From: Candidatus Yonathbacteria bacterium
GTDB lineage: Bacteria > Patescibacteriota > Minisyncoccia > Phycocordibacterales > UBA1550
Length of the DNA: 38,516 bases
Reading direction: 5' to 3'
Assembly: GCA_016215205.1 (NCBI GenBank)
Contig: JACRKU010000005.1
Coordinates: 1 to 38,516 of the forward strand
In this document: piece after piece, positions 1,638 to 38,375 of the stretch
Numbering within the stretch: the stretch's first letter is position 1
Layout of the letters: the number at the start of each line of letters is the position of its first letter
Position numbers and translations under genes: made by a program
The notes under the pieces: model-generated
Database searches by the model: none
The model's input: the letters and a program-made list of their open reading frames with translations, nothing else
Told to the model about the DNA's origin: nothing

Positions 1638-3290
1638 CTATCTCCCTTTTCCGCGCGCAATGGCGGCCTTGATAAAAGCGTTAAAAATTGGGTGTGGGTC
1701 GAGAGGTCGCGCTTCAAACTCGGGATGAAACTGTGTACCCAAAAAGAACGGGTGCACGCTCGTAGGTAGCTCGGCGATTTCCATAAGCCTGCCATCTGGT
1801 GACATGCCAGAAAACACAAGACCTTTCTCCTCGAGTGCTCCAACATACTCTGGGTTCACTTCAAATCGGTGGCGATGACGCTCCACAACTGAATCTTTTC
1901 CATACGCCCTTTGCGCAATGGTCCCCTTTTTAAGCACTGCTTCATACGCGCCAAGGCGCATACTCCCCCCAAGGTTTCCCTTCTCCATATTTTCTTTTTG
2001 CCCCTCCATAATATCCACGATGAGGTGCTTTGACTTCGAATCAATCTCGCGCGAGGTTGCGTCTTTGAAACCAAGAACATTCCTCGCATACTCAATTACG
2101 GCAAGTTGCATGCCGTAGCAAATGCCAAAATACGGAATCTTGTGTTCGCGCGCAAAACGAATAACATTGAGCTTGCCCTCTACGCCGCGCGAGCCGAAAC
2201 CGCCGGGCACGAGAATACCATCAAAACCAATGAGCTCCGCGAGCGGTGCATCCTTACCTTCAAACGTCGTAGCGCTGAGCCACACGAGCTTTGCTTTTTT
2301 CCCTTGGTGGATTGCCGAATACTTGAGCGCTTCAATAACGGAGAGATACGAATCCGCAAGGACATAATCGCCCGTATCAAAATATTTTCCCACTATCGCA
2401 ATACGAACTTCGTCTTTTACATTGCCAGCCTTGCGCGCAAACGCTTTCCATTCTTTCCATTCCGCGCTTTCCCCTCGTGACTTTAGCTTCAGACGTTTTA
2501 AGATTTTTTCTCCGAGTTTGTCCTTTTCGAAATTGCCCGGAACATCGTAAATACTATCAACATCGGGTGCGGAAATGACGCTCTCTGGAATGACATTGCA
2601 AAAAAGCGCGAGTTTTTCTTTGCGCTTTGCGTCTAGTGCCACATCACTACGCGCGATAATAAAATCTGGCTGAATCCCCGTGCTATTTAGGGCTCGCACC
2701 GCGTGCTGTGTCGGCTTTGTTTTCATTTCTCCGACTTTTGACGGCGTGGGAAGGTAGCTCACAATGGCAAAAAGCACATCATCTGGATTTTTTATTTTGA
2801 GCATTCTCGCCGTCTCGAGAAAAAGAATGTTCTCGTACTCGCCAACGGTACCGCCGACCTCGATGACTACAATCTCGGCGTTCGCCTTGTCCACCGCGTT
2901 GTTGATGCGATCAATGACCTCGTACGGAATATGCGGCACCACCTGTACGCACTTGCCTTTATACGCGAGCGCGCGTTCTTTTTGAATAACAGACAAATAC
3001 ACGCGTCCTGTCGTCATATAGTTGTCACGAGTAAGCGAGGTGTCGAGAAAGCGCTCGTAGTTGCCCATATCCTGATCTGTTTCGTCGCCGTCTTTGAGCA
3101 CAAACACTTCGCCGTGCTCGGTTGGGTTCATCGTGCCAGCGTCCACATTCACATACGGGTCAATCTTCATCGCTGTCACACGGTAACCGTGCGACTGCAA
3201 GATTTTTCCGATAGAAGAAGTCGTGATACCCTTGCCGACTCCGGAAATCACGCCGCCCACCACAAAAATATACTTGCGAATCTTCTTCAT
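1638..3290 (-). CDS. pyrG: CTP synthase
   Basis: 550 aa; KYIFVVGGVISGVGKGITTSSIGKIL start; C-terminal glutaminase motifs GICYGMQL and GTQFHPEF. Confidence 0.98.
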   Translation of the reverse strand: MKKIRKYIFVVGGVISGVGKGITTSSIGKILQSHGYRVTAMKIDPYVNVDAGTMNPTEHGEVFVLKDGDETDQDMGNYERFLDTSLTRDNYMTTGRVYLSVIQKERALAYKGKCVQVVPHIPYEVIDRINNAVDKANAEIVVIEVGGTVGEYENILFLETARMLKIKNPDDVLFAIVSYLPTPSKVGEMKTKPTQHAVRALNSTGIQPDFIIARSDVALDAKRKEKLALFCNVIPESVISAPDVDSIYDVPGNFEKDKLGEKILKRLKLKSRGESAEWKEWKAFARKAGNVKDEVRIAIVGKYFDTGDYVLADSYLSVIEALKYSAIHQGKKAKLVWLSATTFEGKDAPLAELIGFDGILVPGGFGSRGVEGKLNVIRFAREHKIPYFGICYGMQLAVIEYARNVLGFKDATSREIDSKSKHLIVDIMEGQKENMEKGNLGGSMRLGAYEAVLKKGTIAQRAYGKDSVVERHRHRFEVNPEYVGALEEKGLVFSGMSPDGRLMEIAELPTSVHPFFLGTQFHPEFEARPLDPHPIFNAFIKAAIARGKGR

Positions 3291-3291
3291 G

Positions 3292-4224
3292 TTACTTTGA
3301 AGTCAAGTACTTACGTACCGCTAAATAGCTCGATACTGCCCCAAGTGCGATGCCCGACGAAACAATAATTAGGAAAATCTGTACAAAATTTGCGACGAAG
3401 TAGTGCAATAAATCGACTCCGCCATAAAAAACTTGAGTGGTATTTTTAAGCCAGTAGGTAATCGGGTAAAAAAGAATGAGAGTTAGGAACGACGCCACGA
3501 GGCCGTAAAGAATCCCCTCAACCACAAATGGTCCGCGAATATATTCTTTGCTACCGCCAACGAGACGCATTACTCCAATCTCGTCGCGCGCGATAAAAAT
3601 GGCGAGACGGATTGTGTTGAAAGTAATTAAAATGGAAATGCCGACCATTACCGCGGTGATGATACCGCCGAGTTTTTTGACTCCGACGATAAGTTTTGAA
3701 AGACGCTCAATGGCGGCTTTATTGTCGTTGTAGTTTACCTTGCTTACGATGGAGATAGCGCTTCCGGCTGAAAGCTCGGACTTGTTTAAAAGAAAGTTTG
3801 AGATGCCTTCGTACTGTGAAGGCTCGCGCGCTTTCACGGTGAGGGTAGCTGGGAGCGGATTGTCCCCTATTTCATCGAGAGCTTGAGTGATACGATGGTC
3901 GTTTTCGTGGCGAGAGCGAAACTCATCAAGTGCCCGTTCGCGCGAGATGTACTCAACTGTTTTTACTTCGGGCAAAGTCTCAAGCTGTTTTTTCAAGTCC
4001 ATAATTGCGGATTCAGTGGCTTTTGCGTCTACATAAATATTGATGTCAATTTTATCTTGAAGGTCTTTGAGCGCCGTGCCGAGAAACGCCGTAATGATAA
4101 GTGTTGAAGCAATCATAAAGAGCGCAACGATCATCACAAAAACGGCAGAAAGCGAAACGCTGCCGTTTCGCCAAAAACTGACGAATCCTGCTTTTATAAT
4201 TCTTTTAATGGTTGTCCAGAGCAT
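3292..4224 (-). CDS. ftsX: Cell division protein FtsX (permease-like)
   Basis: FtsX architecture, downstream of ftsE; start chosen at MLWTTIKRIIKAG (ORF opens at 4251). Confidence 0.93.
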   Translation of the reverse strand: MLWTTIKRIIKAGFVSFWRNGSVSLSAVFVMIVALFMIASTLIITAFLGTALKDLQDKIDINIYVDAKATESAIMDLKKQLETLPEVKTVEYISRERALDEFRSRHENDHRITQALDEIGDNPLPATLTVKAREPSQYEGISNFLLNKSELSAGSAISIVSKVNYNDNKAAIERLSKLIVGVKKLGGIITAVMVGISILITFNTIRLAIFIARDEIGVMRLVGGSKEYIRGPFVVEGILYGLVASFLTLILFYPITYWLKNTTQVFYGGVDLLHYFVANFVQIFLIIVSSGIALGAVSSYLAVRKYLTSK

Positions 4225-24968: not shown

Positions 24969-25055
24969 GGAGACGTGACCGAGAGGCCGAAGGTACCTCA
25001 CTGCTAACGAGGCAGGGGATAAAACCCCTCGAGGGTTCGAATCCCTCCGTCTCCG
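24969..25055 (+). tRNA. tRNA-Ser(GCU)
   Basis: GGAGACGTGACCGAGAGG...CTGCTAA...long variable arm...GAGGGTTCGAATCCCTCCGTCTCCG; anticodon GCT. Confidence 0.95.
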
Positions 25056-25234
25056 CAAAACAAGAAGCTCAACACGAATGTGTCGGGCGACTGTGTTTTG
25101 CGAGAGATGGAGGGATTCGAAAGCGAACGCGGGCACCCGCCTGGCACGGCGGGTCGCGAGAGCAGGGCCGAGAAATTTTTATGAGTGGCGACGAATAAAA
25201 ATGTTCTTGGCCAAAAATCCCTCCGTCTCCGCAA
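25056..25234 (+). ncRNA. Structured element downstream of tRNA-Ser: inverted tRNA-3' copy, two hairpins, direct tRNA-3' copy
   Basis: 25036-25062 vs 25094-25121 inverted; 25040-25058 = 25216-25234 direct (19/19); hairpins at 25135-25154 and 25165-25212; same plan as 37264-37452. Confidence 0.7.
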
Positions 25235-36847: not shown

Positions 36848-37263
36848 GGGGATGATCGGCCTAGACAGGCGGTCAACTCTGGTCAGTGCTATGCCGAGAA
36901 TGTTCAAGACCTCGTTAAATCTTGAATACACAAGTATGTGCAAAAAACACACTTGCAAAAGCTAAGGCTATCGTATCACCATACTTTGGTGCTAACGCCT
37001 TCGCTCCTGCTTACGCTCTCGTAGCCTAAACAGCATTCACATTCAGTACGCCCTCTAGGGAATCGTGGGTGATATAAAAAGAGGGCTCATCATTTGGAAT
37101 GACTCTACCAAATGAAAAAACAAAGAGTATCGGTTGTGTATGATTTGGAATACTTTATACATACACTCCTTAAATTAAGCCTAGCTTAAAAATAAGTATT
37201 CTACGCATAGTAGACTCTAGCCAGAACATCGTCTGCACGGGGGTTCGATTCCCCCCATCTCCA
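36848..37263 (+). ncRNA. ssrA: tmRNA
   Basis: 5' GGGGATGATCGGCCTAGACAGGCGG, 3' GGGTTCGATTCCCCCCATCTCCA; tag ORF ends ...PAYALVA-TAA at 37027-37029; next to smpB. Confidence 0.96.
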
Positions 37264-37452
37264 CAAGTCGCACCGCCCAAAGACGCATGTCTTTGGGCGG
37301 TTTGCGATTGTGTGAGATGTGGGGAATCGAAAAGCGCAGGCGGGCACACTGTGTACTCACAGGGTCGCCGAGCTGGGGTCGCGAACACTTTGTATTTTGT
37401 GAGTAATCGAAACAAAATACTTAGTGATTCGTGACCGATGAACCCCATCTCC
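37264..37452 (+). ncRNA. Structured element downstream of tmRNA, same plan as the tRNA-Ser element
   Basis: Inverted copy of the tmRNA 3' end at 37303-37331; hairpins 37337-37369 and 37378-37436; partial direct copy ccccatctcc at 37443-37452. Confidence 0.68.
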
Positions 37453-37489
37453 CTTGCGTGAAAAGTAGGTGCGGGAGTATACTATCCCC

Positions 37490-38281: not shown

Positions 38282-38375
38282 GACATACAATCAATTGTGT
38301 CACTTGGAGGCATCACTTGGAGGCCTTGCCTCCAAGTGAAGGCCGCCAAAGTAACTTTTTTGTTTTTGTTATTTA

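Follow-up and report, generated by a model that had tools for sequence, protein, structure and literature searches.

A family of structured, protein-less elements, probably DNA insertions, behind tmRNA and tRNA genes of Patescibacteria

Introduction

The systems closest to the element analysed here, as they stand in general knowledge, are integrative elements, the integron and CTX-phi systems, MITEs and REPs, each of which departs from it in at least one defining feature. Integrative elements and satellites that occupy tRNA and tmRNA 3' ends have in common with it the site, a direct copy of the 3' end on the far side, an intact target gene and tandem stacking. In contrast to them, the present element is only about 180-250 bp long with no integrase or cargo found, adds an inverted copy of the target and a folded conserved core, and uses many different tRNAs and even the ends of protein genes. 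Of the two hallmarks of integrative elements, insertion at a tRNA 3' end with a direct copy of that end is present, whereas an integrase is not carried: the units contain no integrase gene and the integrase families are untied to copy number, although one may act in trans.

Integron attC cassettes and the folded attP of CTX-phi, which uses the host Xer, share with the element imperfect hairpins, a structure conserved more than its sequence, tandem arrays and a plausible single-strand substrate. Here, however, tyrosine recombinases are not expanded (about one per genome), there is no cassette gene, and the closing stem is copied from the target rather than being a fixed recombination site. No attC boxes (RYYYAAC / GTTRRRY) were seen by eye in this stem, P1, which is gene-specific in our alignment A3. 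MITEs are likewise short, non-coding, multi-copy and associated with target duplication, which was also found here, but the present element lacks terminal inverted repeats of its own, its inverted arm being target sequence that follows the local gene, and no parent transposon was recognised. REP/REPIN elements with their RAYT transposases are also dispersed hairpins in genomes that often bear RAYT genes, but the palindromes beside the RAYT genes here are of another kind, and the element persists without RAYT. Patescibacteria have tiny genomes, in which tRNA genes are mostly single-copy.

Results and Discussion

Two copies in one window

The window, that is, the whole analysed stretch of 38,516 nucleotides from a Candidatus Yonathbacteria genome (G000; other genomes, contigs and loci are likewise denoted by G, C and L numbers), contains one copy behind the tmRNA gene and a second behind tRNA-Ser(GCU) (Table 1). 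The units have a common order. First comes a spacer that holds a terminator-like hairpin, then a', in which the gene 3' end is copied in inverted orientation; the conserved core, roughly 60-130 nt long and containing helices P2-P4, follows, and a(2), a direct copy of the same gene end, comes last, while the target copy a(1) remains inside the gene. The tmRNA and tRNA-Ser copies belong to one family of what are probably protein-less DNA insertions, and positions 37273-37452 are one unit of this family at gene 3' ends.

Table 1. Features of the two elements in the window and of their target genes
Feature	Position	Strand	Evidence
tmRNA (ssrA), gene preceding the element	36848..37264	+	ARAGORN; Rfam RF00023, 107.5 bits
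a(1), tmRNA 3' end (T-loop to discriminator) and trailer	37244..37272	+	inverted repeat I1, direct repeat D1
Spacer with perfect 13-bp terminator-like hairpin, ACCGCCCAAAGAC / GTCTTTGGGCGGT	37272..37301	+	repeat finder I2
a', inverted copy of the tmRNA 3' end	37303..37331	+	repeat finder; alignment score
Core, P2, internal loop and P3	37333..37374	+	RNA fold; covariation
Core, P4, GGTCGCGAACACTT .. ACTTAGTGATTCGTGACC, near-invariant G-T wobble	37377..37436	+	covariation; fold
a(2), partial direct copy of the tmRNA 3' end; 3' strand of P1	37437..37452	+	direct repeat D1
tRNA-Ser(GCU), second target in the window	24969..25056	+	ARAGORN; Rfam
tRNA-Ser element, spacer	25057..25103	+	sequence
tRNA-Ser element, a', 94% complementary to 25036-25053	25104..25121	+	repeat finder
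tRNA-Ser element, core, class B, GGGCCGAGAA..TGTTCTTGGCC	25122..25215	+	R1 match, fold
tRNA-Ser element, a(2), perfect 19-nt direct copy of 25040-25058	25216..25234	+	repeat finder

ARAGORN and Rfam both start the tmRNA at 36848 and end it at 37264 or 37266. The preliminary description, made from the sequence alone, had listed behind it an inverted 3'-end copy, a separate perfect hairpin, two further hairpins and a shorter direct copy, and all of these pieces were found where it had placed them. The inverted arm is real: its alignment score is 32, and the best of 100 shuffles reached 18, although its match had been overstated as 25/29; the repeat finder pairs 23 of the 29 nt without gaps (79%). 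The last part of a' is the 5' strand of helix P1. The hairpin between the gene and the inverted arm indeed has a perfect stem of 13 bp, and we infer that it acts as a terminator. Both hairpins of the core, which folds over about 105 nt, were also recovered. The first (37339-37369) is P3, with GGCG 37339-37342 / CGCC 37366-37369, a bulged GGC at 37343-37345 and a terminal hairpin (AC..GT); it is preceded by P2 (AGC 37333-37335 / GCT 37372-37374) and an internal loop GCA/GA. The second is P4 (GGTCG..GTGACC). The direct copy is exact over CCCCATCTCC (ccccatctcc, 37443-37452), within a direct repeat of 17 nt and 82% identity (37246-37262 / 37436-37452, repeat finder).

The folding energy of positions 37240-37460 is -123.1 kcal/mol, far better than that of shuffled sequences (-69.5 +/- 4.8; z = -11.1), and the stretch 37314-37452 alone has z = -7.3. 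The tmRNA element is retained in a congener, G002. Neither result named in advance as refuting the observation, a downstream sequence unconserved in close relatives or helices no better than those of shuffled controls, was thus obtained. The recurrence of the whole plan at tRNA-Ser, also proposed earlier, was borne out by its arms and its direct repeat (Table 1); this element has a folding z of -7.4 (25104-25234), and the covariance model R1 matches it at 25109-25224 with 82.5 bits.

In the genome bin there are two distinct tmRNA genes, whose tag peptides differ (G000:C22:36848-37264 and G000:C26:842-1245). The second lies on the 3-kb contig C26 and lacks the element; its origin may be an integrated element or a related organism.

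Distribution and conserved structure

A search of the same genome with the tmRNA copy gave further matches, the clear ones behind tRNA genes. When the downstream regions of all its tRNAs were read, the plan was seen behind Tyr, Cys, Leu(UAA), Val(GAC), Glu(UUC) and Val(UAC), and divergent relatives of it behind Met, His and Glu(CUC); the majority of the 39 tRNAs have no element. Matches to the tRNA-Glu copy were found by blastn in 41 of 61 related genomes. The covariance model R1 gave 16 matches in the genome of the window and was matched in 55 of the 61 related genomes of the order, with up to 34 matches per genome, and in 19 of 193 genomes sampled across the phylum. Among the matches listed, a strict core pattern occurs in Yonathbacteria, Kaiserbacteria, Nomurabacteria, Taylorbacteria, Zambryskibacteria and other Parcubacteria. 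A scan of the window against Rfam (4227 families) gave the tmRNA and tRNAs as the only matches at gathering thresholds, and a permissive scan of the element gave chance hairpin (miRNA) matches and the tmRNA itself, with no credible family. No published description was found in a literature search, with subscription journals mostly outside its reach. The element family is widespread in Paceibacteria (Patescibacteria) and apparently so far undescribed. With reserve, we regard it as a new category; it could also be seen as a variant of the protein-less mobile repeat.

On folding energy alone, the single elements of the window form a three-way junction, which is closed by P1, formed by a' and a(2). 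P2 is followed by a GNA/GA internal loop and then by P3, often with a bulged GGC; in P4, GGTCG..GTGACC, a G-T wobble is nearly invariant. Alignment A3 (32 sequences) has changes on both sides of 24 of 35 pairs, with 164 cells changed on both sides against 58 in shuffles and a covariation score of 0.353 against 0.151 in shuffles, a value reached by none of 500. One P2 pair occurs as G-C, C-G and A-T in near-equal thirds. When the partner is slid by a single column, the proportion of paired cells drops from 85% to 44% or less, and shifts of 1-3 columns destroy the signal. Covariation in P1 carries no weight for selection because both strands copy the same gene end; that in P2-P4 does carry such weight.

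The covariation and the folding z-scores, together with the presence of the element in independent genomes from many studies, refute chance palindromes or an assembly artefact as its origin, a reading that we consider practically dead. What speaks for it are runs of N inside units in some relatives, where assemblers evidently struggle.

Selection on the structure would also be expected if the element were a vertically kept part of tRNA transcription units, a module that functions as RNA or DNA in 3' processing, in termination or as a decoy. In P4, G-T pairs outnumber A-C mismatches, which favours the tRNA-sense strand as the folded strand, and this too would suit such a module. In P2-P3 the excess is not clear, and both strands of the element fold as DNA; whether RNA or single-stranded DNA is the folded form is therefore undecided. 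A point against the module is that a terminator-like hairpin usually precedes the core, and another is that most tRNAs of the genome do without the element. The results give no support to an effect of the downstream arm on processing by RNase P or RNase Z.

A second hairpin repeat, TAAGCGACATAGAGTGAG..CGAGCCGAGGAGCTTA, was observed inside P4 of some units and also elsewhere (L041 at about 3255-3400; L119; L251), with two tandem copies behind tRNA-Val(UAC). The same arm plan also encloses other cores, for example GGGGTCGGGGAAAC.. behind His and Met and GGCCCCACATTTT.. behind Leu (L004, L042, L050, L085, L103, L129). Differing core classes with a common arm plan suggest a larger superfamily beyond model R1.

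Position and arms

A tRNA or tmRNA gene lies on the same strand within 400 nt upstream of 138 of 162 matches, at a median distance of 55 nt, in a pooled set that is partly biased as it includes loci fetched through tRNAs. Among the loci fetched because of the element, 99 of 122 are behind tRNA or tmRNA, and many of the others were seen by eye to follow tmRNA or tRNA 3' ends uncalled by ARAGORN. In a follow-up set of 20 matches from seven genomes, picked from the list of the model, all 20 are directly behind a tRNA or tmRNA. The nearly constant sense orientation directly behind these genes is again a feature that a vertically kept module would explain.

The arms match the local gene. The inverted arm scores on average 25.3 against its own tRNA and 13.3 against other tRNAs, and the direct arm 24.9 and 10.9, respectively. 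In most cases the inverted arm begins at T-loop position 54, and the base past this start extends the complement in only 5 of 124 cases. It copies the full acceptor and T-arm in 44 copies and the T-arm part only in 51; in 29 copies a hairpin, whose loop is commonly CTGC, separates the two parts. The T-arm copy was not found in 14 of 138 cases, and the arms are partly decayed.

Three more matches in the genome of the window are behind rplL (L7/L12), topA and 5S rRNA; such targets are rarer. Behind rplL, the stop-codon region of the gene is present both inverted and repeated; behind topA about 75 bp of the gene end are repeated and the inverted arm is only short; behind 5S rRNA the 5S end is repeated. 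The arms are copies of whatever gene end was hit. The preliminary description had taken tmRNA and tRNA-Ser for unrelated loci that share only a tRNA-like 3' end; they do share it, but the range of targets was thereby understated. These three copies, which carry the ends of their own genes, also stand against a vertically kept module of tRNA units, and a tRNA-mimic RNA was dropped as the main explanation. Arms that copy any gene end hit disfavour both a tRNA-mimic function and a tRNA-specific integrase.

At locus L184 (G208:C12), with two matches, the tRNA-Gln 3' end occurs as a(2) with no intact tRNA-Gln called upstream, and remnants of a tRNA 3' half can be seen before one of the two tRNA-Gln-type units. 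At element-free tRNAs of the genome of the window, the terminator palindrome frequently extends into the acceptor 3' strand in inverted copy, as at tRNA-Phe (C14), Arg-GCG and Ser-UGA (C12) and Asp (C22:6877-6952). The terminators of this genome look as if fold-back copying were common.

Possible gain, loss and exchange of cores

Where orthologous sites within the genus are empty in one genome and filled in another, the difference is exactly one unit, which lies between direct repeats of the gene's 3' end, so that the sequence after a(2) in the filled genome directly follows a(1) in the empty one. Such sets of empty/filled genomes were found for tRNA-Cys (G010/G013, G009), tRNA-Tyr (G003/G000), tRNA-Arg(UCU) (G003/G013), tRNA-Trp (G000/G003 and G013) and, by eye, tRNA-Val(UAC) (G010/G005). 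At Leu(UAA) the genome of the window has one unit more than G003, the extra unit being proximal to the tRNA. Exact tandem double units are present at Val(UAC) in G012 and Arg(UCG) in L176 (loci L121 and L176). The preliminary description had held that recurrence of the plan argues for function or mobility. This is upheld by its presence behind dozens of tRNA and tmRNA genes in many genomes, and the filled and empty orthologous sites favour mobility.

Filled and empty pairs alone give no direction, since slippage between the direct repeats could precisely remove units. A module kept vertically would lose and double its units by such slippage and exchange its cores by gene conversion, and some orthologous pairs, such as Cys in G013 and G009, do have a common core. 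Against this, close relatives differ at the same tRNA, and orthologous tRNAs of congeners carry quite different core classes (Ser, Tyr, Leu). For 70 of 95 cores of the genus, the nearest relative comes from another genome and also follows another tRNA. Core identity for the same tRNA in different genomes is 0.813 against a background of 0.802, by a measure generous to gaps; relatedness has no signal by genome (p = 0.235) and a weak one by tRNA (p = 0.004). Gain of units is favoured by the different core classes at orthologous tRNAs and by core similarity that is nearly independent of tRNA and genome while the arms match the local gene. We consider the vertical module unlikely, and retain insertion as the preferred reading.

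Candidate mobilising enzymes

No integrase gene lies inside the units, an exact core pattern was not found in 2.9 million viral contigs, and blastn of the core against phage and plasmid records gave no match at the sensitivity used, which speaks against a helper on phages or plasmids. Tyrosine recombinases (PF00589) number about one per genome among the 61 genomes, also in element-free ones, and are untied to copy number; the single enzyme is presumably Xer. Reverse transcriptase (PF00078), as for a retroelement, was rejected as mobiliser: it is missing from four of the five element-richest genomes, G001 (34 copies), G015 (33), G041 (31) and G054 (25). Cas1 (PF01867), the integrase of casposon- or CRISPR-type integration, was also rejected, being present in only 2 of 61 genomes.

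In several genomes of the genus, large serine recombinase genes abut the 3' ends of tRNA or tmRNA genes (L052, L046, L395, L397, L398). One of these genomes is that of the window, where such a gene (L052, G000:C26, 1229-2800) lies against the 3' end of the second tmRNA (842-1245). These ends are thus also targets of serine-integrase elements, and the enzymes are candidates in trans. The units might accordingly be miniature, internally deleted derivatives of integrative elements, moved in trans by an integrase for tRNA 3' ends such as a large serine recombinase, and the direct copy of the tRNA 3' end resembles an att duplication. We find this origin improbable. Serine recombinases (PF00239) do not track copy number and were not detected in the element-rich G031 (22 copies), G055 (20), G053 (17) and G030 (12), while tyrosine recombinases keep to about one copy with or without elements; moreover, the arms follow any gene end with no fixed att sequence, and att recombination makes no inverted copy.

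Mobilisation by Y1 (RAYT) transposases, as of REP/REPIN elements, has in its favour the hairpin structure and the presence of Y1/RAYT genes (PF01797) in 43 of 61 genomes, mostly element-bearing ones. Yet these genes do not track copy number, and they are absent from the element-rich G015 (33 copies), G053 (17), G046 (14) and G025 (12). The examined RAYT loci, 20 in number, have other short palindromes flanking the gene, and only one holds a match to the element, partial and about 5 kb from the gene. As RAYT-type transposition also makes no duplicated target, we rate this mechanism very improbable. The palindromes flanking Y1/RAYT genes are of the type CTTGGAGGC..GCCTCCAAG (L219, L230, L237), and a similar one is found in the window at 38301-38340, behind the last gene before the window end.

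Proposed explanation and significance

The explanation that we prefer, and consider probable, is that the units are structured insertion elements that encode no protein and have arms copied from the target. The core would be the moving part, and the arms would be made from the target during insertion; the main reason for supposing so is that the rplL, topA and 5S rRNA copies carry those gene ends. Arms made in this way would leave the gene end intact in front, with its duplex in effect capped by the folded core. Against the explanation stand the partial decay of the arms and the result that none of the five enzyme families searched for tracks copy number. We speculate that the folded core is processed in single-stranded form, that a recombination or repair activity supplied in trans joins it to the gene 3' end, that fold-back copying of the gene end would then yield a', and that the duplicated target would become a(2). 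Single-strand joining with fold-back copying appears the likeliest route, for which the data offer weak support.

To our knowledge, the combination of an inverted and a direct target copy matches no known insertion reaction, and the responsible enzyme, or RNA, may thus be new. We tentatively raise the possibility of a new mobile class: a folded core of about 60-130 nt, with no protein and no sequence-specific ends, that inserts at transcript or gene 3' ends, copies its target end both inverted and directly so that the core caps the target duplex, leaves the host gene unbroken and spreads in Patescibacteria by a process that is possibly single-strand- or RNA-based. Up to 34 copies of the element lie behind mostly single-copy tRNA genes, none of which is broken. 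Should the units prove to have a function, they would represent a component of tRNA gene expression that has gone unrecognised in a large bacterial branch. Under either reading, the family provides a covariance model and a marker for Patescibacteria that genome annotators have apparently overlooked.
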